A DNA stretch of 38,412 nt from a virus. The notes beneath the pieces are model-generated. The model saw nothing but the letters and a program-made list of their open reading frames with translations. It was not told the origin of the DNA and made no database searches. Each line of letters starts with the position of its first letter. The first letter of the stretch is position 1. Below are positions 14,157 through 31,996 of the stretch, one piece after another. The stretch spans positions 1 to 38,412 of the IMG/VR virus record IMGVR_UViG_3300035457_000002; one strand, 5' to 3'. A program made the position numbers and the translations under genes.

Positions 14157-14419
14157 TCTTTTGCCCTACATCCTTTACAAACATACTTGTTTTCACGCAT
14201 ATATCTTATTTCAACCGCAACGCCATCTTTTATCATTTTGCTGATTACATCACGCGATTGAACTTTAGATAAACCCTTTTCCATCAGTCTGTCTATAGTC
14301 CAATCGGTAGGTAATAATTTGACACACATTTTCTTTGTCAGTTCTGCGTTGATGGCGTCATTCAATGCTTTTACGGCTTCACTTTCAGATATGGTCAGGT
14401 GCTTCACGACGGTACTCAT
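14153..14419 (-). CDS. Small putative DNA-binding protein with terminal Cys pair
   Basis: The 88-residue protein is helical at the N-terminus and then reads like a small winged-helix region (WTIDRLMEKGLSKVQSRDVI, then a wing KDGVAVEIRYMRENKYV) ending in CKGC. It overlaps the phosphoesterase gene end by 35 bases. It may regulate transcription, but the helix-turn-helix assignment is by eye. Confidence 0.55.
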   Translation of the reverse strand: MSTVVKHLTISESEAVKALNDAINAELTKKMCVKLLPTDWTIDRLMEKGLSKVQSRDVISKMIKDGVAVEIRYMRENKYVCKGCRAKE

Positions 14420-15233
14420 ATTTTATATACTCCACTTCTTTTTTAGCAATATCACAGAACAGCAATCCGATCTCTGGCATTCCGGCGCTTTTTCCTATTC
14501 GATGAATATAGGGATTCGCGCCTTGCCAACACGGACCAATATAGGAATGAATGGAGAAGTTGTCTCCACTTTCCGAATATCTATGAACATGTCCACGAAA
14601 GGCAAAATCTGGTAGTGGCTCGTGCCATCGGTTGGCGTATTCCATAACCAAATCAGACGACAAATGGTTTGCGGCGTCTTTTTCTGTTCTTGGAACCGTA
14701 CCCATATTTACGTGATGTGCTAGGTCAAACTTACGTCCGCCTATGAAGGTTCTCAGATATTGGTATGAATATTCTTTTGTTCGCCTTAGTTCTGAGTTTC
14801 TGTGAATTATCCCCTTTTTTTCTTTTTCCATTTGTCTTGCTATTTTCTCATCCAACATCCCGTTATTTCCTACATGGGCTTCCGTGCCACGAATGACAAT
14901 TATCTTTTTCGCCATTTCTATAATCGGCAAAAATAATTCGATAGAATGGTCTCGGACACAATCAACATCTTTTGATATATATTGGTTACTTCTATTTTTT
15001 GCGTCAATATCGCCAATCTCACCACCGATCCCCACAACAATCGGACGCTTGCCTGCCCTGTTTTTTACTTCTTTCCACGCATCCAGCCAACCATTATATA
15101 AGGCTTTCTGTAAGGCGTTAGCATGATAAACATTGCCTTCCCCCATATCAATTACAGGCAATGAAACCGCCTGCTTACTATTTATGTGAATATCTGTTAC
15201 CCATACAAAAACTGGATTTTTCAATGTATCCAA
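14385..15233 (-). CDS. Metallophosphoesterase
   Basis: This 282-residue protein uses a TTG start 8 bases after AAAGGAT. Calcineurin-like motifs are in order: D14-x-H16 (WVTDIHINS), GD at 74-75 (GGEIGDID), a variant of the GNHE motif (RGTEAH, 116-120), LAHHVN near 172, and GHVH at 214-217. It should be a two-metal phosphoesterase acting on a phosphodiester or nucleotide. The GTEAH variant replaces the Asn of GNHE with Thr. Its cellular substrate is unknown. It is the gene next to the solitary cassette. Confidence 0.85.
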   Translation of the reverse strand: MDTLKNPVFVWVTDIHINSKQAVSLPVIDMGEGNVYHANALQKALYNGWLDAWKEVKNRAGKRPIVVGIGGEIGDIDAKNRSNQYISKDVDCVRDHSIELFLPIIEMAKKIIVIRGTEAHVGNNGMLDEKIARQMEKEKKGIIHRNSELRRTKEYSYQYLRTFIGGRKFDLAHHVNMGTVPRTEKDAANHLSSDLVMEYANRWHEPLPDFAFRGHVHRYSESGDNFSIHSYIGPCWQGANPYIHRIGKSAGMPEIGLLFCDIAKKEVEYIKYEYRREAPDHI

Positions 15234-15296: not shown

Positions 15297-15393
15297 GGCT
15301 AACGGTTTGCGTTAGCGGATGGTTGTGGCGGGCGTGGATCAACTGTCATATTTTGCCCAGCCCACAACCAGTCCGCTGCACGCTGTGTTGGGC
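15297..15393 (-). other. attC site of solitary cassette
   Basis: Read on the minus strand: R'' GCCCAAC (15393-15387), L'' CAGCGTG, an imperfect self-complementary middle, L' TAACGCAAACC and R' GTTAGCC (15303-15297). The L'/R' block is the same as in the main array at 26-32 kb. The cassette 5' end (GTTGGGCGTGC from 15541) is the reverse complement of the extended R'' box over 11 bases. Confidence 0.88.
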
Positions 15394-15540
15394 GTGCTTC
15401 TCAGAACAAAAATTCTTGCCGTCTCTCACGATAGCTTCTTTTTTTAGAACCAACTCGTTGCAATAACTACAAACAACGTAATTTGGAAGAAACTTTTTTA
15501 TAAATTCTTTATAGTTATATTTTTTCATAGGCACGCCCAA
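15303..15540 (-). mobile_element. Solitary integron-type gene cassette
   Basis: A 238-base cassette bounded by G/TTGGGC upstream and G/TTAGCC downstream, with one gene and one attC. It lies between the metallophosphoesterase and the SH3 lipoprotein genes in the same transcriptional direction. The upstream junction reads CACTAG/TTGG, not the CCG/TT left by a previous attC, so it inserted at a non-attC site. Joining the flanks restores one frame, ATGGCGGCTGAAACACTAG plus TTAGCCAGC..., of 25 codons that the cassette interrupts. Confidence 0.88.
15346..15528 (-). CDS. Cassette gene: small zinc-finger-like protein
   Basis: Sixty residues from ATG 15528 (MKKYNYKEFIKKFLPNYVVC...). A Lys-rich N-terminal helix is followed by CSYC, FCSEKH and a final GCGLGKI. 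The Cys/His spacing (C-x2-C, then C-x3-H) suggests a treble-clef type zinc finger. The last 15 codons run into the cassette's attC. The ATG lies only 13 bases inside the cassette boundary with no clear ribosome site. Function unknown. Confidence 0.6.
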   Translation of the reverse strand: MKKYNYKEFIKKFLPNYVVCSYCNELVLKKEAIVRDGKNFCSEKHAQHSVQRTGCGLGKI

Positions 15541-15669
15541 CTAGTGTTTCAGCCGCCATTTTACAGCCTATATCGCCAAATGGCTGTTTAGACGGTGATA
15601 AATTAATTACGGTTGATAGTCCTCTGTTTCATTTGGATCGTGAGGACAGGTCTTTAGAACAAAGTGTTG
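15541..15669. other. Intergenic stretch flanking the solitary cassette
   Basis: No confident gene is present. The minus strand contains the beginning of the frame interrupted by the cassette (ATG GCG GCT GAA ACA CTA) and a short open stretch after the SH3 gene stop that reads TCPHDPNETEDYQP without a normal start codon. One TGTTGTC heptamer is at 15665-15671. Confidence 0.5.
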
Positions 15670-16026
15670 TCATTTTTTCACCAAACATAAATACCGACTG
15701 GATACCCAACCAGTTTTTGATTTATAAACGACCTCATACCAATCTGTGAAAACTGGCGTCTTTTCCAACTTTCGGGTTCGTACCACAACCTCGCCATCCT
15801 GAATAACCATCAAAACCACAAAGTTTGTACCTGCGCCTTCTCTTAGATTCAAGCCGCCTGAATTACATACAACCATTTTACTTTGTTCTGGTTGTGTTGT
15901 CGGACGTAATTCAGAAACTTGGCTAATCGGTTTAGAAACTGGCGAAAATGGCAACGGGTCTTTGATTCCAATATCACAAGCTAATACCGACAACACCAGA
16001 GCGCAGAAAGCTAAATATTTTCTCAT
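15670..16026 (-). CDS. SH3-domain lipoprotein
   Basis: The 118-residue protein has a lipoprotein signal (MRKYLAFCALVLSVLAC, lipobox VLAC with Cys17), a Pro/Ser/Thr linker, and a bacterial SH3 domain from about residue 50 (VVCNSGGLNLREGAGTNF, then WYEVVYKSKTGWVSSRYL). SH3b domains bind peptidoglycan. Its start overlaps the upstream stop as ATGA. A surface lipoprotein expressed during infection could alter the host envelope or exclude competing phages; this is inference. Confidence 0.82.
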   Translation of the reverse strand: MRKYLAFCALVLSVLACDIGIKDPLPFSPVSKPISQVSELRPTTQPEQSKMVVCNSGGLNLREGAGTNFVVLMVIQDGEVVVRTRKLEKTPVFTDWYEVVYKSKTGWVSSRYLCLVKK

Positions 16027-25701: not shown

Positions 25702-25950
25702 ATGGCGTCAAAAACAGTAACCCGTAAATATGTTGATGGAACACAAGAAACCCTGCTAAGAAAAAAGCAAGGCAGACATAAGATACTTAAAGAGTTTCTT
25801 CGTCCTTGTCGGGTTATTGGAAGTGTGAGTCAATCAAGACGCGACAAACTGGACGAAATAATATCTTCTGGCGTTTTGAAAGAAAGCGATATTATTAATC
25901 ACGCTTTGGATATGTGGTTTTGTTACTATACTAAATTAACTGTACAGTAA
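25702..25950 (+). CDS. Putative ribbon-helix-helix protein
   Basis: The 82-residue protein has a basic N-terminal half (TRKYVDGTQETLLRKKQGRH) and a C-terminal segment (SRRDKLDEIISSGVLKESDI, then INHALDMWF) with the spacing of a ribbon-helix-helix regulator. It ends 16 bases before the first cassette boundary, and a palindrome ACTGTACAGT covers its last codons. It is the last ordinary phage gene before the array. Confidence 0.6.
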   Translation: MASKTVTRKYVDGTQETLLRKKQGRHKILKEFLRPCRVIGSVSQSRRDKLDEIISSGVLKESDIINHALDMWFCYYTKLTVQ

Positions 25951-25981
25951 ATCAGTCAAGCAATAGTTAGAAGGCTAAAAC

Positions 25982-26647
25982 ATGTTCACTTTGCACAACG
26001 GCGATTGTCTCGAATACCTAGCCACTCTTCCAGCGGGAAGTGTTGACGCAGTAGTAACAGACCCGCCGTATTTTCTGCCTGCTACACATTATTCTACCCG
26101 TTCAAGGTCTGCCCGTTCTCTGAGCGATTTATCAATGCTCGAACACTTTTACCGCGATGTGTTCACAGAACTTGCAAGGGTTACAAAGCCTTCGGGCGTT
26201 TGGTATGTTTTCTGCGATGGTCAAAGTTATCCCGCCTTTTATGTTTCAGCATATCCCCATGTAAAGGCGTTGCGTCCGCTCATTTGGGATAAGGTTGTTT
26301 CGTTCAATGGCTACACTTGGCGACATCAGCACGAAATTATTATGTTCGCAGAGTTGCCCGAAGCAAAGCCAATACCCACAGGCGATGGAGATATTTTGAG
26401 AAATCGCGCTGTTCCTGTAAATGATAGGGAACACTTGGCAGAAAAGCCAGTTGATTTATTGGCGCAACTTGTCAAGAAATGTGGTCAGATTATTCTTGAT
26501 CCATTCGCGGGAAGCGGGTCAACTGGCAAAGCGGCATTGAAGGAAGGCAAAGATTTTATTGGTTGTGAAATTGACGAGAGATATTATCGTCTTGCACAAT
26601 CAGGGCTTGAAGGCATAGAGCCTAGTACGCCTTCTAACACAGCGTGA
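25982..26647 (+). CDS. Cassette 1: DNA methyltransferase, beta class
   Basis: The 221-residue protein carries DPPY at 27-30 (motif IV) and DPFAGSGSTG at 173-182 (motif I), with DKVVSFNGYTWRHQHEII between; this permuted order is the beta class of N4-cytosine or N6-adenine methyltransferases. No restriction enzyme accompanies it, so it probably protects phage DNA or has a regulatory role. Its stop lies in the first bases of attC (C-terminus PSNTA). The first 52 bases of the cassette are identical to those of cassette 8. Confidence 0.9.
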   Translation: MFTLHNGDCLEYLATLPAGSVDAVVTDPPYFLPATHYSTRSRSARSLSDLSMLEHFYRDVFTELARVTKPSGVWYVFCDGQSYPAFYVSAYPHVKALRPLIWDKVVSFNGYTWRHQHEIIMFAELPEAKPIPTGDGDILRNRAVPVNDREHLAEKPVDLLAQLVKKCGQIILDPFAGSGSTGKAALKEGKDFIGCEIDERYYRLAQSGLEGIEPSTPSNTA

Positions 26648-26725
26648 ACCCGACAAAAACTAGAGTCGGGCAAAATTATCAGGTTCGGCGTTCCCCGTTT
26701 TTGCGGGTTACGCAAACCGTTAGGC
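26632..26725 (+). other. attC site 1
   Basis: R'' TTCTAAC, L'' CAGCGTGAACCCG, L' GCGGGTTACGCA, R' GTTAGGC. L'' and L' pair apart from one extra G in L'', the extrahelical base typical of attC. Nearly identical to attC 4 (two differences in about 87 bases). Confidence 0.92.
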
Positions 26726-26761
26726 GGCTTCCTTGCAAGCCAAGAGAAAGGTAAAACAAAT

Positions 26762-27028
26762 ATGTCAAGCAAAAAATGGCGCATGAAAACTGGTGAAATC
26801 ATAAACATAGCAGATATGGCAGATAGTCACCTTGCCAATACTATCGCCATGCTTCGCCGTAAAGGTTTCGTTAGCAATTCGGATTTGTCAATGTATCTTT
26901 GCTCTGAACCGAATGGTGAAATGGCACAGGAATTATATTTCGCAGAGTTGAGCCGCATAAAAACGCATCCTTCGCTAGATGAGTTAGAAGCAGAGCAGGC
27001 ACGCCGCCTAACAAATGCTTGCACCTGA
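26762..27028 (+). CDS. Cassette 2: hypothetical protein
   Basis: Eighty-eight residues beginning MSSKKWRMKTGEIINIADMA. Mid-region NTIAMLRRKGFVSNSDLSMY is helical and basic; the last codons (RRLTNACT) enter attC 2. A ribosome site AAAGGTAAAAC precedes it. The LRRKGFVS segment is reminiscent of a helix-turn-helix, but no family is recognised. Confidence 0.65.
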   Translation: MSSKKWRMKTGEIINIADMADSHLANTIAMLRRKGFVSNSDLSMYLCSEPNGEMAQELYFAELSRIKTHPSLDELEAEQARRLTNACT

Positions 27029-27131
27029 CGGGGCGACTCATCTGTGCGGCGGCAAGTATTACGTAGACAATGTGCTTGGTGAAGTTTGTTGTCGATGCCA
27101 AGCGCCCCGCAGGTAAAGCACACCGTTGGGC
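27006..27131 (+). other. attC site 2
   Basis: R'' GCCTAAC, R' GTTGGGC at 27125-27131. The cassette 5' end GTTAGGCGGC is the exact complement of GCCGCCTAAC at 27003-27012. The L' box is CAGGTAAAGCACACC, one of the more divergent of the set. Confidence 0.85.
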
Positions 27132-27160
27132 GTATACTTGGCAAAAAGGAGATTTGAAAA

Positions 27161-27325
27161 ATGGCACAAATAATAATCGTTGAGTACACATATATTTTTT
27201 ATTGCGATGGTGATTTATTCGAGCAAAATACTTTTGGTTCTGATGAAGCCGCTATCAAGCACGCTAAAGCCGAAGCAGAGAAACGTGGCAAACCTGTAAA
27301 GGTTGCAAGATGGCTTGAATTTTAG
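27161..27325 (+). CDS. Cassette 3: 54-residue protein
   Basis: It starts after AAGGAGATTTGAAA, a strong ribosome site, and ends before attC 3. The protein MAQIIIVEYTYIFYCDGDLF ends in AEKRGKPVKVARWLEF: three strands and a basic helix. The build suggests a compact alpha/beta mini-protein. Function unknown. Confidence 0.65.
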   Translation: MAQIIIVEYTYIFYCDGDLFEQNTFGSDEAAIKHAKAEAEKRGKPVKVARWLEF

Positions 27326-27336
27326 TCGGGCAATAC

Positions 27337-27434
27337 GCCCAACAAAGCGTGCACCTGACGTATGGTGGGCTTCGGCGTGGTGGACGGTTTTTCCTACACC
27401 CGCCACCATACGCAGGTAACGCAAACCGTTAGAT
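27337..27434 (+). other. attC site 3
   Basis: R'' GCCCAAC, L'' AAAGCGTGCACCTG, L' CAGGTAACGCAAACC, R' GTTAGAT. The 5' GTTGGGCGTA of the cassette is the exact complement of TACGCCCAAC (27334-27343). The middle TGGTGGGC...CGCCACCA closes the hairpin. Confidence 0.9.
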
Positions 27435-27448
27435 GCCTCAGGAGCAAA

Positions 27449-27847
27449 ATGAAAAACGCCGCTGGTGATGTCAATTGCGATGTGTACATTCGCCAAGAGT
27501 TGGAAGCCGCAAATATTCCAGTTGCAGAGATAGAAATCTTGCGCAGCAAAGGCGAAGTTCCATCAGCAATCATAGGTATTTTGGATGGATGGACTTTCCG
27601 CAGAGCCTGGTATTACTGGGTTGCAGAGTCAGACAGATCGGTTTTGCTTTTCAACTTTGCCAATCCATTGCACGAAAAGTACGGTGAAGCAGTTAGAGTT
27701 GATGGTCACTGTGCTTGCCCTGCTCCTCGTGAATACCTCAAGGAACCGTGGTGCATCGGCGTAAATCTCTACCACGTCGACAGCCAAGATGGTTTGATTG
27801 CGTTGGCAGATGCCATTAGGTCGCAGACGGCATCTAACACCGCGTGA
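27449..27847 (+). CDS. Cassette 4: hypothetical protein
   Basis: With the ATG after CAGGAGCAAA it has 132 residues. Segments FRRAWYYWVAESDRSVLLFN and HCACPAPREYLKEPWCIGVN are rich in aromatic residues and Cys, with strand content that suggests a small globular alpha/beta protein. It ends SNTA at the start of attC 4, like cassette 1. No known family recognised. Confidence 0.7.
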   Translation: MKNAAGDVNCDVYIRQELEAANIPVAEIEILRSKGEVPSAIIGILDGWTFRRAWYYWVAESDRSVLLFNFANPLHEKYGEAVRVDGHCACPAPREYLKEPWCIGVNLYHVDSQDGLIALADAIRSQTASNTA

Positions 27848-27925
27848 ACCCGACAAAAACTAGAGTCGGGCAAAATTATCAGGTTCGGCGTTCTCCGTTT
27901 TTGCGGGTTACGCAAACCGTTGGAA
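27832..27925 (+). other. attC site 4
   Basis: R'' ATCTAAC, R' GTTGGAA. Interior nearly identical to attC 1, while the R'' box is different and matches this cassette's own 5' end (GTTAGATGCC / GGCATCTAAC). R'' thus co-varies with the cassette and not with the rest of attC. Confidence 0.92.
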
Positions 27926-27935
27926 AGCCTAAGCC

Positions 27936-28727
27936 ATGTTGAGTGATAGCAAAGTAAGAATACCAAACCAGCCGTCTTTCTTTCGTGGGCGTGTCCTTGT
28001 GTGGTTTTCGTGTGGTGCGGCTTCGGCTTGCGCGGCGAAACTCACGCTCGAACAGTACCCAGATGCAGATATTTTATACTGCGATACCTTAGCCTTTGAG
28101 CATCCAGACAACCGCCGATTTATTTCCGATGTCGAAAAATGGATAGGCAAGGAAATCAAAATATTGAAGTCTGAAAAGTATCAAGATATTTTTGATGTGT
28201 TCGATAAAACAGGCTGGCTTGTCGGTGTCAGTGGCGCACGCTGCACACAAGAACTAAAGCGCAATGTCCGCGAACAATATCAGGGCGTTGGCGATGTGCA
28301 TGTGTTCGGATTCGGCGTGGATGAACTTGCCCGCCTTGCCCGATTTGAGCGTGACAATCCAGAACTTTACCTATTGTTCCCGCTCCGTGACGCTGGCATG
28401 AATAAGCAAGCCTGTTTGGATATGCTCATGCAAGCGGGCATTGAATTACCAGCCATGTATAAACTTGGATACAAAAATAATAATTGTATTGGGTGCGTGA
28501 AAGGCGCGAAAGGTTACTGGAATAAAATCCGCGTGGATTTTCCAGAAGCCTTTGAGCGTATGGTCAAGCAAGAGCGCAAAATGAATATCAAAATTCTTGA
28601 TGTGTTTCTTGATGAATTGGAACCGTCCGCAGGTAACTATCATTCAGAGTTTGAAACTGAATGCGGTGTAGTCTGTGCGGCTTTTCCAACACAGCGTGCA
28701 GCGGACGCGATAGAGCCGCGCCGCTAA
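27936..28727 (+). CDS. Cassette 5: PAPS reductase-like PP-loop protein
   Basis: The 263-residue protein has a PP-loop variant FSCGAASA (24-31), ADILYCDTLAFEHPDN, ARCTQELK, FGFGVDE and a NNCIGC Cys pair, all features of the phosphoadenosine phosphosulfate reductase family of adenine nucleotide alpha hydrolases. The loop has Cys-Gly-Ala-Ala in place of the usual Gly-Gly-x-Asp, a version seen in phage and mobile-element members. Relatives include sulfur-transfer enzymes for DNA phosphorothioation, so nucleic-acid modification or anti-defence is possible. It is the largest cassette cargo. Confidence 0.8.
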   Translation: MLSDSKVRIPNQPSFFRGRVLVWFSCGAASACAAKLTLEQYPDADILYCDTLAFEHPDNRRFISDVEKWIGKEIKILKSEKYQDIFDVFDKTGWLVGVSGARCTQELKRNVREQYQGVGDVHVFGFGVDELARLARFERDNPELYLLFPLRDAGMNKQACLDMLMQAGIELPAMYKLGYKNNNCIGCVKGAKGYWNKIRVDFPEAFERMVKQERKMNIKILDVFLDELEPSAGNYHSEFETECGVVCAAFPTQRAADAIEPRR

Positions 28728-28742
28728 CGCAAGCCGTTCTAC
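28684..28742 (+). other. attC site 5
   Basis: The shortest of the series, 59 bases. R'' TTCCAAC, L'' CAGCGTGCAGCGG, L' CCGCTAACGCAAGCC, R' GTTCTAC. Its L' has CAAGCC in place of CAAACC. The cassette 5' GTTGGAAA matches TTTCCAAC. The cassette gene ends inside it. Confidence 0.9.
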
Positions 28743-28773
28743 GGCATCTTGCCAAAATAAAAAAAGGTGAAAC

Positions 28774-28980
28774 ATGTTTGAAAAATTACTGAAACAATGG
28801 GCTAATGAGCAAGGCTTCCAAACGTGGTCACAAGACCATGCGGCAGTTCTTCGCAATCTATCTTCCTGGCTCAATACTCATGCCGTAGAACAACTGCGTG
28901 CACTGGACACGCTACGCTGTGAGGAAGAAGGCTGTAAAAAGCCTGCCGTCATGTATTATTGTGAAACTCATGCGCCTTAG
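28774..28980 (+). CDS. Cassette 6: small protein with attC-encoded Cys tail
   Basis: Sixty-eight residues after AAAAGGTGAAAC. The N-terminal helix (MFEKLLKQWANEQGFQTWSQ) is cassette-specific; the last 30 residues are encoded by attC 6 and contain LRCEEEGCKKPAVMYYCETH, with the Cys/His spacing of a zinc finger. The reading frame crosses almost the whole attC and stops just before L'. Function unknown. Confidence 0.6.
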   Translation: MFEKLLKQWANEQGFQTWSQDHAAVLRNLSSWLNTHAVEQLRALDTLRCEEEGCKKPAVMYYCETHAP

Positions 28981-29009
28981 TCGCGTGCCAGTAACGCAAA
29001 CCGTTGGGC
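28885..29009 (+). other. attC site 6
   Basis: R'' GTAGAAC, L' GTAACGCAAACC, R' GTTGGGC. The cassette 5' GTTCTACGGC is the exact complement of GCCGTAGAAC (28882-28891). GTTCTAC is an unusual R', and the matching unusual R'' shows the pairing is not a generic motif effect. Confidence 0.9.
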
Positions 29010-29034
29010 GGACTGCTCAACAGAAAGAGGTAAT

Positions 29035-29313
29035 ATGTCACAAGCACAATTAGCACGTGGTTGTCAGTTCGGGAAACACGGTGAGCCATTTTTATGGCAC
29101 GGTAGCGGTAATGATGGTGTAGATATTGCCATTATGCAACTCATCAACCTCGCAAAAGATAATCCCAGGTTGGCGCACGAAGCCGCTGAGTTTGTTGATG
29201 CCTGTGTAAAAGATGCCGCCCAACAAGGCATGCACCCGACACGCCCACAGCCTGCGCCCTCTACCTGCAAGTGTGGCTCTAAAGATGGCTATCATGCCGC
29301 ATGGTGTAATTAG
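29035..29313 (+). CDS. Cassette 7: small protein with shared attC-encoded tail
   Basis: Ninety-two residues after AAAGAGG. Residues 1-63 (MSQAQLARGCQFGKHGEPFL...) are cassette-specific. The last 27 or so are encoded by attC 7 (QQGMHPTRPQPAPSTCKCGS, then KDGYHAAWCN), and are shared with cassette 13 except for one residue. The Cys-x-Cys and terminal Cys may bind metal. Function unknown. Confidence 0.65.
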   Translation: MSQAQLARGCQFGKHGEPFLWHGSGNDGVDIAIMQLINLAKDNPRLAHEAAEFVDACVKDAAQQGMHPTRPQPAPSTCKCGSKDGYHAAWCN

Positions 29314-29340
29314 GCGTGCGGGTAACGCAAACCGTTAGAA
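29218..29340 (+). other. attC site 7
   Basis: R'' GCCCAAC, R' GTTAGAA. Apart from a single base, about 122 bases here are identical to attC 13. Its 5' counterpart GTTGGGCGGA matches the extended R'' at 9 of 10 bases. Confidence 0.9.
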
Positions 29341-29349
29341 GGCTAAAAC

Positions 29350-30033
29350 ATGTTCACTTTGCACAACGGCGATTGTCTCGAATACATGAAGGCTTTACCA
29401 GTCAAGGCGTTTGATTGCGTCATCACAGACCCGCCTTATGGTATCAATTTCATAAATGGTGGTGGTCGCAATCCTGCAAACGGCTGGCGCACTTTTTACG
29501 ATGGCGAAGGCGATTGGGATAAGTGGAAACCAACAAAAGAATATTTTGATGAAATGTTCCGTATCTCAAACAAAGTAATTATTTGGGGCGGTAATTACTT
29601 CTCAAATCTTTTACCACCTTCGCAACAGTGGCTGGTGTGGGATAAGGGTCAGCGTGATTTTAGTTTAGCCGATGGCGAATTGGCTTGGTCAAGTCTCGAT
29701 AAGGCTGTAAGAATTTACACATATTCAAGAGCCGCAATGCTCAAAGAAAGGGTAGAACATCCTACACAGAAACCAATATCACTTATGAAATGGTGCATTG
29801 AAATATCATCCGCTCAATCAGTTTTTGATCCGTTCATGGGGTCAGGAAGTACGGGTGTCGCCTGTATGCAAATGGGTATCCCGTTTACTGGTTGCGAAGT
29901 CAATGCAAAGTATTTTTCCATAGCAGAGAAGCGCATAAAATCGGCGGTCTTTCAGCCGTCGTTCCTTACGCCTTCTAACACAGCGTCCACCCGACAGGGG
30001 CGGGCTGCGCCTCAGTTTGATAACTTTGAATAA
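29350..30033 (+). CDS. Cassette 8: DNA methyltransferase, beta class
   Basis: The 227-residue protein has DPPYG from 27 and DPFMGSGSTG at 160-169, with HPTQKP at 137-142, the standard core of phage and restriction-modification N6-adenine/N4-cytosine methyltransferases. The first 12 residues (MFTLHNGDCLEY) and 52 cassette bases equal those of cassette 1, while the rest is quite different. The C-terminus (about 20 residues) is encoded by attC 8. Confidence 0.92.
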   Translation: MFTLHNGDCLEYMKALPVKAFDCVITDPPYGINFINGGGRNPANGWRTFYDGEGDWDKWKPTKEYFDEMFRISNKVIIWGGNYFSNLLPPSQQWLVWDKGQRDFSLADGELAWSSLDKAVRIYTYSRAAMLKERVEHPTQKPISLMKWCIEISSAQSVFDPFMGSGSTGVACMQMGIPFTGCEVNAKYFSIAEKRIKSAVFQPSFLTPSNTASTRQGRAAPQFDNFE

Positions 30034-30082
30034 TTTTATGGTCTTGCGTTCTCGCCCCTGCGGGTAACGCAAACCGTTAGGT
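29973..30082 (+). other. attC site 8
   Basis: R'' TTCTAAC, L'' CAGCGTCCACCCG, L' GCGGGTAACGCAAACC, R' GTTAGGT. CAGGGGCGGG...TCGCCCCTG forms the inner stem. The cassette 5' GTTAGAAGGC is the exact complement of GCCTTCTAAC. Confidence 0.92.
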
Positions 30083-30087
30083 GCTTC

Positions 30088-30333
30088 ATGGCTAATAAAT
30101 TCAATCACTTCAAATTGTGGCTTTATCAAAAGTTGGGCGTGGGCTGGTCTGCTCATTGGTCGCCAGATGGTAAATTGCTTGCAGTGTATTACCTGCCAAC
30201 AATCGTCCGTCCTGGTGGTAGCGCACCTAACAAAATTTTGCACGCAGACGCGGCTATGCCGCCGTCCGCCGAGCCTGATTCTAGCTCTGATATTGTCCCC
30301 GCTGTTGAGTCTGATACTCTGCCGCGCTGGTAA
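30088..30333 (+). CDS. Cassette 9: hypothetical small protein
   Basis: Eighty-one residues from an ATG 11 bases inside the cassette with no strong ribosome site. The first half (FNHFKLWLYQKLGVGWSAHW, then SPDGKLLAVYYLP) is aromatic and strand-rich; the second half is encoded by attC 9, low-complexity and acidic (PPSAEPDSSSDIVPAVESD). The tail is probably a by-product of attC. Function unknown. Confidence 0.55.
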   Translation: MANKFNHFKLWLYQKLGVGWSAHWSPDGKLLAVYYLPTIVRPGGSAPNKILHADAAMPPSAEPDSSSDIVPAVESDTLPRW

Positions 30334-30348
30334 AAACAACCGTTAGCC
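30225..30348 (+). other. attC site 9
   Basis: R'' ACCTAAC, R' GTTAGCC. The L'-R' block is degenerate (AAAAACAACCGTTAGCC in place of AACGCAAACCGTTAGGC). The 5' end GTTAGGTGC still matches GCACCTAAC exactly. Confidence 0.8.
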
Positions 30349-30365
30349 TGCTGAAAGGAATGGCG

Positions 30366-30737
30366 ATGAAAATTGATATAGTAAAAAATGGCACGTTTGA
30401 AGTAGGTGATTGTCACGTTGTTGGCAAATTGCCCGAATCAAAACCGTATGTCTGGATTGGTGATAATAATGTTTGTTTGGCAGTCCTCGATAAACGTCAA
30501 ATGAATCTACTCAACAAACAATGGGCGCAGGCTAACAAAGCGTGCATCCGACGTGTGCCACGTCGCGGCGTGAAAGCAAAAACCCGCAAGGCTTCGCGCC
30601 AGTTGGAACGTGTCGCATGTCCTGAGTATATTGAAAGCGTGCGGCGAACGGGGCTATGCCCCGAATGTGACAGCGAGATTTTGCCAACACATTTTTGTAT
30701 GATGGGGCATTGGTGCAGTGAACCGCCCCGCCTCTAA
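30366..30737 (+). CDS. Cassette 10: protein with C-terminal zinc-ribbon-like tail
   Basis: I start at ATG 30366 (after AAAGGAATGGCG), giving 123 residues (MKIDIVKNGTFEVGDCHVVG...). The first 55 residues are strand-rich and end at the R'' box. A basic segment (RRVPRRGVKAKTRKASRQLE) and a Cys-rich end (LCPECDSEILPTHFCMMGHW) follow inside the long attC interval. The gene may be a fusion of two cassette genes through a degenerate attC. Confidence 0.6.
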   Translation: MKIDIVKNGTFEVGDCHVVGKLPESKPYVWIGDNNVCLAVLDKRQMNLLNKQWAQANKACIRRVPRRGVKAKTRKASRQLERVACPEYIESVRRTGLCPECDSEILPTHFCMMGHWCSEPPRL

Positions 30738-30753
30738 CGCATGTCCGTTAGTT
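30530..30753 (+). other. attC site 10, atypical and possibly composite
   Basis: R'' GGCTAAC at 30530 matches the cassette 5' end (GTTAGCCTGC / GCAGGCTAAC), but R' GTTAGTT is 224 bases later. The L'' (AAAGCGTGCATCCG) and L' (CCTCTAACGCATGTCC) sides do not pair well. The right part holds its own hairpins (GGGGC-TAT-GCCCC; GGGGC...GCCCC). This looks like left and right halves of two different attC sites. Confidence 0.6.
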
Positions 30754-30782
30754 GCTGTTTTGCTAAAAAAGGAGTTCCAAAA

Positions 30783-31058
30783 ATGAGTTTTCCAAATATA
30801 ATTTCGGGTTATGCCTGGCAATGTCCATCCTGCAAAACATGGTTTCCCACTGGTCAGTCTCATGCGTGTGGTGGAACCTATCAACCGTACATTGACCCAT
30901 CCGTCTTGGAACGCATCGCAAAGGCTCTCGAAGAAATTGCATCGCAACTAACACAACGTTCACTGGACGCGGCTACATACGAGCGTGATGGCTTATTATT
31001 CTGTAAAACTTGTGGATCTGGCATGGGTGCGGTTGAAGATGCAACCCCGCGCCGCTAA
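30783..31058 (+). CDS. Cassette 11: zinc-ribbon-like small protein
   Basis: Ninety-one residues with ATG after AAAGGAGTTCCAAAA. The N-terminal part has WQCPSCKTWFPTGQSHACGG, a C-x2-C...H-x-C zinc site. The C-terminal 36 residues come from attC 11 and include FCKTCGSGMG, a second Cys pair. The middle is helical (LERIAKALEEIASQL). It may bind nucleic acid; unproven. Confidence 0.65.
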   Translation: MSFPNIISGYAWQCPSCKTWFPTGQSHACGGTYQPYIDPSVLERIAKALEEIASQLTQRSLDAATYERDGLLFCKTCGSGMGAVEDATPRR

Positions 31059-31073
31059 AGCAAACCGTTGGGC
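30946..31073 (+). other. attC site 11
   Basis: R'' AACTAAC, L' CCGCTAAAGCAAACC, R' GTTGGGC. The cassette 5' GTTAGTTGC is the exact complement of GCAACTAAC (30944-30952). GTTAGTT/AACTAAC is again an uncommon pair. Confidence 0.88.
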
Positions 31074-31099
31074 GTTTCCTTGCGAAACAAAGGAGTCTT

Positions 31100-31366
31100 A
31101 TGTTTGATGAAATCGTAAACGAAGATAAAATAGTAAACGAAATTGAAACACGTTGCAAAAATCCACTCGAAACACAATCCAGCATCGCGCAGAGTTACGC
31201 TAACATGTTGCGCTATTTGCACTTTATCTCGGATGACAAAATCAAAATTGCAAACAACGCAATCAAGGCGCGTTATCCATCCAAGAGCGGGCTTGCTCGT
31301 GTAAAGAAAATGGCTTGGGCTATCGTTGAAAAACGCCCAACATCGCGTGCACTGGATTTTCTTTAA
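31100..31366 (+). CDS. Cassette 12: helical hypothetical protein
   Basis: Eighty-eight residues after AAAGGAGTCTT. Predominantly helical and charged (FDEIVNEDKIVNEIETRCKN; SSIAQSYANMLRYLHFISDD) with a basic C-terminal half (NAIKARYPSKSGLARVKKMA). It stops in the left half of attC 12. No family recognised. Confidence 0.65.
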   Translation: MFDEIVNEDKIVNEIETRCKNPLETQSSIAQSYANMLRYLHFISDDKIKIANNAIKARYPSKSGLARVKKMAWAIVEKRPTSRALDFL

Positions 31367-31426
31367 GGCGCGGCAAAATCGGCTGGTCTTGCACAATCCG
31401 CAAACCAATAACGCAAACCGTTGGGC
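31335..31426 (+). other. attC site 12
   Basis: R'' GCCCAAC, L' AATAACGCAAACC, R' GTTGGGC. The cassette 5' GTTGGGCGTTT is the exact complement of AAACGCCCAAC (31331-31341). Confidence 0.9.
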
Positions 31427-31446
31427 GGCTTCGCCCGAAATAATTT

Positions 31447-31498
31447 CCCCGCCGTCTGTGCCGCGAATGCGGAAGCTGCTCTAGGAGCGGCGGCGGGG
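31447..31498 (+). promoter_or_regulatory. Three-way-junction RNA in leader of cassette 13
   Basis: CCCCGCCG (31447-31454) and CGGCGGGG (31491-31498) close an 8-base-pair stem that contains two further hairpins, CCGC-GAAT-GCGG and GCTC-TAG-GAGC. Just upstream GGGCG-GCTT-CGCCC forms another. This unusually long leader precedes AAAAGGAG and the cassette gene at 31517, and may be a small structured RNA. Confidence 0.55.
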
Positions 31499-31516
31499 TC
31501 TAGCAAAAGGAGAAAC

Positions 31517-31732
31517 ATGAGTGAATTAGAAAAACAGGCTTATGAATTGTGCCTAGCAATTGAACAACTCCCAGCAGGTGAGTATCAAACAAAATTGTCT
31601 GTTATGGCGAGCGATCTTTTGCAAAACATTCGCGCCGCCCAACAAGGCGTGCACCCGACACGCCCACAGCCTGCGCCCTCTACCTGCAAGTGTGGCTCTA
31701 AAGATGGCTATCATGCCGCATGGTGTAATTAG
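31517..31732 (+). CDS. Cassette 13: small protein with shared attC-encoded tail
   Basis: Seventy-one residues from the ATG after AAAAGGAGAAAC. The first 42 residues are helical (MSELEKQAYELCLAIEQLPA...). The rest (QQGVHPTRPQPAPSTCKCGS and on) is encoded in attC 13 and differs from the tail of cassette 7 by one residue. Two unrelated N-terminal parts sharing one tail is what exchange of attC modules would produce. Confidence 0.65.
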   Translation: MSELEKQAYELCLAIEQLPAGEYQTKLSVMASDLLQNIRAAQQGVHPTRPQPAPSTCKCGSKDGYHAAWCN

Positions 31733-31759
31733 GCGTGCGGGTAACGCAAACCGTTGAGC
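31637..31759 (+). other. attC site 13, last of the array
   Basis: R'' GCCCAAC, L' GGGTAACGCAAACC, R' GTTGAGC. The cassette 5' GTTGGGCGGC is the exact complement of GCCGCCCAAC (31634-31643). Nearly identical to attC 7. It is followed by a gene without an attC. Confidence 0.9.
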
Positions 31760-31786
31760 AGACCGCTCAATAGAAAGAAATTTCAC

Positions 31787-31996
31787 ATGAATAACATACA
31801 AATTAAATTCACCCCCTTATCTATAAGAAAATGTGTATATCAATTTATTAGAGTAGGAATTGAAGATATTGGTAATCCTGTTATTATGGAAAAAGAAATA
31901 TATCAATATTTTATAGATCACGACCCTCAAATTAGAGAATTATTAAATAAAGGGGAACCGTTTACAATGTGTCTCGTTTTGGACGAGCACAATTAG
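31787..31996 (+). CDS. Small protein at right edge of the array
   Basis: Sixty-nine residues (MNNIQIKFTPLSIRKCVYQF...). No attC follows, and its sequence is visibly more AT-rich than the cassettes. Its leader TTGAGC-AGACC-GCTCAA is a perfect 6-base hairpin starting exactly at the array boundary. It may be a native phage gene that once followed 25950 directly, or a cassette that lost its attC. The stop overlaps the stop of the convergent tail-fibre gene. Confidence 0.65.
   Translation: MNNIQIKFTPLSIRKCVYQFIRVGIEDIGNPVIMEKEIYQYFIDHDPQIRELLNKGEPFTMCLVLDEHN

Follow-up and report, generated by a model that had tools for sequence, protein, structure and literature searches.

A solitary integron cassette at a second attI-like site in an integrase-less phage, and the case for an integrase acting in trans

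In the phage examined here, one genuine integron cassette with exact junctions, at positions 15303-15540, lies alone at an attI-like site 10 kb from the main cassette array of the same genome. An integron integrase acting in trans, probably that of the host, is the best explanation for its presence, since the phage encodes no such enzyme. The window, i.e. the whole stretch of DNA that was analysed, is a complete phage record (G000) of 38,412 bp with a 123-bp terminal repeat and genes for terminase, portal, tape measure, DnaB, Erf and lysis functions. The features on which the argument draws are as follows.

14385..15233, minus strand: downstream flanking gene, encoding a 282-aa metallophosphoesterase-like protein (named from motifs by eye; no Pfam match)
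15297..15302, minus strand: right half of the target site, /TTAGCC
15303..15393, minus strand: attC of the solitary cassette, R'' GCCCAAC ... L'/spacer/CCG, with variable terminal stem TGGTTGTGG/CCACAACCA
15303..15540, minus strand: solitary integron cassette, 238 bp, starting TTGGGCGTGC (15540) and finishing ...AACCG (15303), with G/TT at both ends
15346..15528, minus strand: ORF of the solitary cassette, 60 aa, cysteine-containing and zinc-finger/metallothionein-like, its last residues encoded by the attC
15541..15563, minus strand: left half of the target site, TAAAATGGCGGCTGAAACACTAG/, with attI-like core GGCTGAAACACTAG (ranked by the junction model)
15670..16026, minus strand: upstream flanking gene, encoding an SH3-domain lipoprotein (SH3_3, E 3e-10; 47% identical in the related record G003)
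25702..25950, plus strand: small ORF, 82 aa, just upstream of the array attI-like site, with weak likeness to the ORF in the same place in record G046
25941..25966, plus strand: array attI-like site, TGTACAGTAAATCAGTCAAGCAATAG/ (rank 1 of 1,460 GTT sites)
25967..31753, plus strand: main array of 13 cassettes, with two DNA methyltransferases, one PAPS-reductase-like protein and small proteins

A 238-base minus-strand insertion with one gene and one attC had been predicted in this place, and its coordinates, strand, length and junctions proved exact; its orientation is, as also predicted, that of the flanking genes and of its own operon. On the minus strand the cassette opens at G(15541)/TT(15540) and closes at G(15303)/TT(15302), the slash marking the crossover point. 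At 15541 the strand reads ...GGCGGCTGAAACACTAG/TTGGGCGTGCCTATGAAAAAA... and, 238 bases on, ...CCGCTAACGCAAACCG/TTAGCCAGC..., such that the cassette is preceded by CACTAG/ and closes ...AACCG/TTAGCC. These junctions bear out a second insertion, independent of the array, exactly at G/TT.

The interval holds the components of an integron gene cassette, namely a folding attC with R'' and R', G/TT bounds and one ORF that ends in the attC, and its identity is confirmed by the match of its 5' end to its own R'' box, the pairing of its R boxes and the fold of its attC. By the cassette rule, the 5' TTRRRY of a cassette is complementary to its own R''; here GCACGCCCAAC at the cassette's own R'' box is, base for base, the reverse complement of its 5' bases GTTGGGCGTGC, and the 5'-terminal 12 nt and R'' share a complementary run of 11. 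Scored in this manner as own-pair runs, all 14 cassettes of the window sum to 135, against an average of 73 for permuted pairs, none of the 20,000 permutations exceeding 107; array cassette no. 10 scores low because its attC exceeds the 170-nt search. Within the excised circle, R'' and R' pair at 7/7 positions, whereas in place the hybrid R' (GTTAGCC, with TTAGCC from the phage) pairs only partially with R'' (GCCCAAC), which is the outcome expected from recombination at G/TT. The bottom-strand hairpin of the attC has a folding energy of -28.7 kcal/mol, the z-scores being -4.5 for the bottom and -5.3 for the top strand when excised and -3.4 in place, and shuffled sequence totalling 0.41-0.62 Mb yielded no hit to the attC scanner. 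The 60-aa cassette protein matches Metallothio_Pro (E 4e-6) and PP0621_fam (E 7e-6), both below the curated cut-off, and neither the protein nor its DNA has relatives in the viruses, the 21 attC-bearing Chloroflexota genomes, or the phage and plasmid records searched.

With its single attC, the solitary site falls outside the definition of a CALIN (at least two attC sites and no intI), within which the array falls. The 82-aa ORF before the array resembles its G046 counterpart at 54% over 28 aa (E 0.001). Within the array, two distinct methyltransferase cassettes begin with an identical 52 bp (25966-26017 and 29334-29385), and array cassettes 7 and 13 have a 122-bp end in common at 99% (29215-29336 and 31634-31755); such repeated starts and ends may be traces of exchange between cassettes. 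Past the last array attC, positions 31754-31996 contain a cassette-like start TTGAGCAGACCGCTCAATAGAAAGA, which resembles the start of array cassette 7, and an ORF, with no attC, and are probably a decayed 14th cassette.

The site that received the solitary cassette appears to be an attI-type half-site rather than just any G/TT, a refinement of the earlier reading. Junctions between phage DNA and a first cassette have a common motif ending ..AAACA(T/C)TAG/TT, which was modelled as a weight matrix of 14 nt, trained on 20 cassette/phage junctions that all came from other virus records, the window being excluded. Among the window's 1,460 GTT sites, this model placed the array junction at rank 1 and the solitary junction at rank 2, and a 23-nt version, likewise trained with the window excluded, placed the solitary junction at rank 1; when TAG was ignored, the two ranked 1 and 2 of 55 TAG/TT sites, and 5 and 6 of 1,459 GTT sites. 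When each record was left out in turn, 16 of 23 known junctions came top in their own record, and those of the window came at 1 and 2. The left half-site GGCTGAAACACTAG thus resembles attI up to its G/TT crossover, and its AAACACTAG/TT is common to the virus sites L107, L119, L250/L261, L253, L255 and L259; against the virus attI TGTACATTCCGCTCAAACACTAG, it is alike at 14/23 positions, AAACACTAG among them. To the right of the cassette, TTAGCCAGCTT resembles a cassette start and may represent an older, decayed neighbour, although no R'' partner for it was found nearby. The original suggestion that the insertion may have broken a small gene is not supported. Joining the flanks does create a frame of 25 codons, for which no ribosome-binding site was seen by eye, but when the joined gap was shuffled with dinucleotides preserved, a frame of at least 25 codons spanned the join in 36% of cases, so its existence is at chance level and is no evidence of gene disruption.

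A virus-type attI is defined here by TGTACA about 23 nt before G/TT together with an ORF of 65-80 aa that ends 0-38 nt upstream. The pattern of this virus-type attI, TGTACANTCYGNNNAANNMMTAGTT, occurs in 21 virus stretches (L047, L063, L068, L078 as a near match, L087, L107, L109, L119 and L249-L261) vs 0/298 genomes of the Chloroflexota class, the contigs 3300029893_000010 and 3300028840_002990 having two copies. Most of these sites are followed by cassettes, and those of L252 and L253 are apparently empty. Members of the companion ORF family, directly upstream of many of the sites, include L262:2243-2446, L265:3992-4189, L254:557-745, L259:10084-10275 and L257:5561-5764, among others, and the family consensus is FRPDL..Y..Y...L..KLNE....KMS.TDAVK.AIEKA....PDV.I..KRKRY. 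The small protein has no Pfam or PHROGs match; it was considered as a ribbon-helix-helix protein and rejected as such, the Pfam and PHROGs searches being empty and no fold match occurring in the PDB, and its AlphaFold model is of moderate quality (pLDDT 77.5), with two helices. As the family alignment is too little conserved for a wide virus scan, a single sequence was used instead, and it recovered itself and three contigs, one of them the G027 record, with attI and cassettes downstream in two of the three. At L263:922-1125 there is a companion gene (83% identical) with no attI or attC downstream, and this contig is possibly a platform-free relative. The solitary site of the window does not belong to the virus type, having no TGTACA element, companion small ORF or palindrome, and may therefore be either a platform that has decayed or a sequence that is attI-like by chance; the array site has TGTACA at a shifted spacing.

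Among viruses more broadly, the attC-type pattern matched 85 virus-contig stretches, and an attC finder detected 187 sites across about 50 virus records, some whole and some partial. Several of these records contain phage genes related to those of the window, including portal genes in G020 (67%), G027 (59%; circular) and G002 (57%), and a fibre gene in L111 (79%); L120 is another of them. Seven have two separate attC clusters, i.e. the window, G004, G005, G017, G031, G034 and G037; in G004 one of the two clusters has just one cassette, and each cluster has an attI-like junction, and in G017 the clusters lie near both contig ends and so may be one. The interval between the early and lysis modules is repeatedly used for cassettes, because G020, G027 and G002 all carry cassettes in it, with a TGTACA-type attI at two such sites. 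In G003, the genes are colinear with those of the window (four-helix membrane protein, 136-aa protein, SH3, metallophosphoesterase-like, holin-like and g13308 homologue), at identities of 47% for SH3, 49% for the g13308 homologue and a weak 24% for the metallophosphoesterase-like protein. The gap between its SH3 and metallophosphoesterase-like genes is 46 nt with no cassette, vs 198 nt plus the 238-bp cassette in the window. It had been proposed to compare relatives for an empty site joined exactly at the predicted position, and the comparison gave a partial answer: the syntenic interval of G003 is free of a cassette, while no join at the level of bases was found, no relative being close enough. 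Protein baits found no relatives of the flanking metallophosphoesterase-like and SH3 proteins in the virus collection, which, having no close relatives of the flanking genes, therefore offers no base-level empty site.

As to the enzyme, the window record has no match to the integron-integrase model TIGR02249 and does not contain a complete integron, i.e. an intI adjoining attI and array. Among the 48 attC-bearing records searched, 37 had no intI match, and a full-length intI above the curated cut-off was present in five of 48, the window not being one of the five. In the five intI-bearing loci L125-L129 (records G033, G042, G035, G007 and G026), the first cassette directly follows the intI stop, e.g. 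..AATCATGAG/TT. The absence of intI, the standing of both window junctions as the best attI-like sites and the seven two-cluster records uphold the prediction that the phage is a repeated target of an integrase in trans. The attC pattern of the window is present in one Chloroflexota groundwater genome, and the same attC type occurs in 21 of 298 genomes of that Chloroflexota class, 14 of the 21 having intI. Sequences next to intI in Chloroflexota are of like form, e.g. GCTGTATAAACGCTAG/TTCGGC and GCTGGTTAAATCATAG/TTGGGC. A matrix from nine putative Chloroflexota attI sites put the solitary junction at rank 1 of about 1,460 with 14 or 16 nt and at rank 2 with 12 nt; these sites were picked by eye once the phage motif was known, and the host-site model is therefore not independent of the phage model. 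We infer that the IntI of the host was the actor and, from the attC and attI type only, that this host belongs to the phylum Chloroflexota; the solitary cassette would still be mobile today.

Very probably, then, a single mobile cassette makes up 15303-15540 and recombined, in circular form, into an attI-like half-site through an integrase absent from the phage, likely the IntI of a Chloroflexota host. The cassette circle would have entered the double-stranded phage half-site GGCTGAAACACTAG/TTAGCC in a reaction between the bottom strand of attC and an attI-type site, cut at G/TT. The enzyme would be an integron integrase with no gene in the phage, its likeliest source being the IntI of the infected Chloroflexota host, and the site, flanked by the early module on one side and the lysis/packaging module on the other, would be a second, independent landing site, 10 kb from the array. 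A wider proposal, that there is a group of Chloroflexota phages with dedicated integrase-free attI sites, often two per genome and some with a companion protein, that exchange host cassettes by means of host IntI, the solitary cassette marking the second site, is plausible yet somewhat short of an even chance.

Two alternatives retain the same enzyme and differ in the nature of the site. In one, to which we would also give a little less than an even chance, an intergenic sequence that is attI-like by accident was used in an off-target event of the attG type, with no benefit to the phage. The lack of TGTACA, palindrome and companion ORF, which sets the solitary site apart from most virus attI sites, and the presence of just one cassette accord with this, as does the fact that non-classical insertion at attG is established in bacterial genomes (Loot et al. 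2024, as cited in PMC12901181). It is less easily reconciled with the rank of the site as the best attI-like one in the genome over 23 nt, and with the cassettes that three relatives have in the same module interval. That interval, shared with the platforms of G020 and G027, rather favours the other alternative, a remnant of a former second attI platform and array that lost cassettes and its TGTACA element. The 14/23 positions in common with TGTACATTCCGCTCAAACACTAG, including AAACACTAG, the cassette-start-like TTAGCCAGCTT downstream and the analogous pair of solitary cassette and array in G004, both attI-like, all suit such a history, which we nonetheless hold to be rather doubtful given that an R'' complementary to TTAGCCAGCTT was not found nearby, the companion ORF is absent and the G003 interval is without a cassette.

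Explanations that dispense with the integrase fare far worse. Homologous or illegitimate recombination, as suggested for other phages in PMC9892861, could have moved a cassette within the phage, and the solitary attC does have a 21-nt exact match to array cassette 5; the gene and the remainder of that attC are not repeated in the array, however, and both junctions fall exactly at G/TT with an attI-like left flank, making such a move very unlikely. That the segment is an ordinary phage gene followed by a terminator-like hairpin accounts for an ORF and a hairpin being present, but is refuted by the complementarity of the segment's own 5' end and R'', by G/TT at both ends and by an attC scanner that has no hits in shuffled sequence, and can be regarded as practically untenable. 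Recombination of a cassette circle by an integrase in trans, probably that of the host, is the reading that we prefer.

If that reading is true, phages borrow the gene-capture system of bacteria: the phage genome supplies just the recombination sites, at two or more positions, and relies on an enzyme of the host. Such borrowing would account for the gain by phages of small accessory genes, among them DNA methyltransferases with a possible role in protection from restriction, and phages would both carry integron cassettes and take part in their exchange. A lone cassette at a site that resembles the landing sites in integrons of the likely host suggests that such phages repeatedly acquire genes via a recombinase encoded elsewhere.

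The closest known systems are the phage CALINs of Qi et al. 2023, in which attC cassettes, often encoding DNA methyltransferases, occur without intI; in assays with IntI1, five of the six phage attC sites examined recombined into attI1 (PMC9892861). The present phage is like them in having attC-bearing cassettes and no intI. The phage CALINs, however, were required to have at least two attC sites and were attributed to possible off-target homologous or illegitimate recombination (PMC9892861), whereas here there is one cassette at an attI-like site, the same phage having a second platform, and the phages are of the Chloroflexota type. IntegronFinder 2 likewise calls a CALIN by default from at least two attC sites, although single-attC cases can be true. 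Cassettes have also been described at attG sites of bacterial genomes (Loot et al. 2024, via PMC12901181), that is, outside an integron at a non-classical site, as here; attG was described there in bacterial genomes, whereas the phage target closely resembles a host-type attI. With the chromosomal integrons of Chloroflexota, the phage has in common the attC type and the putative intI-adjacent attI core, and it differs in having no integrase gene, the TGTACA attI being a feature of virus contigs and of 0/298 genomes of the class. A literature search, which was not exhaustive, brought up no description of phages with integrase-free attI sites. What is new here is that one phage lacking an integrase has a second attI-like site, and that about 20 virus contigs contain an attI of the virus type.
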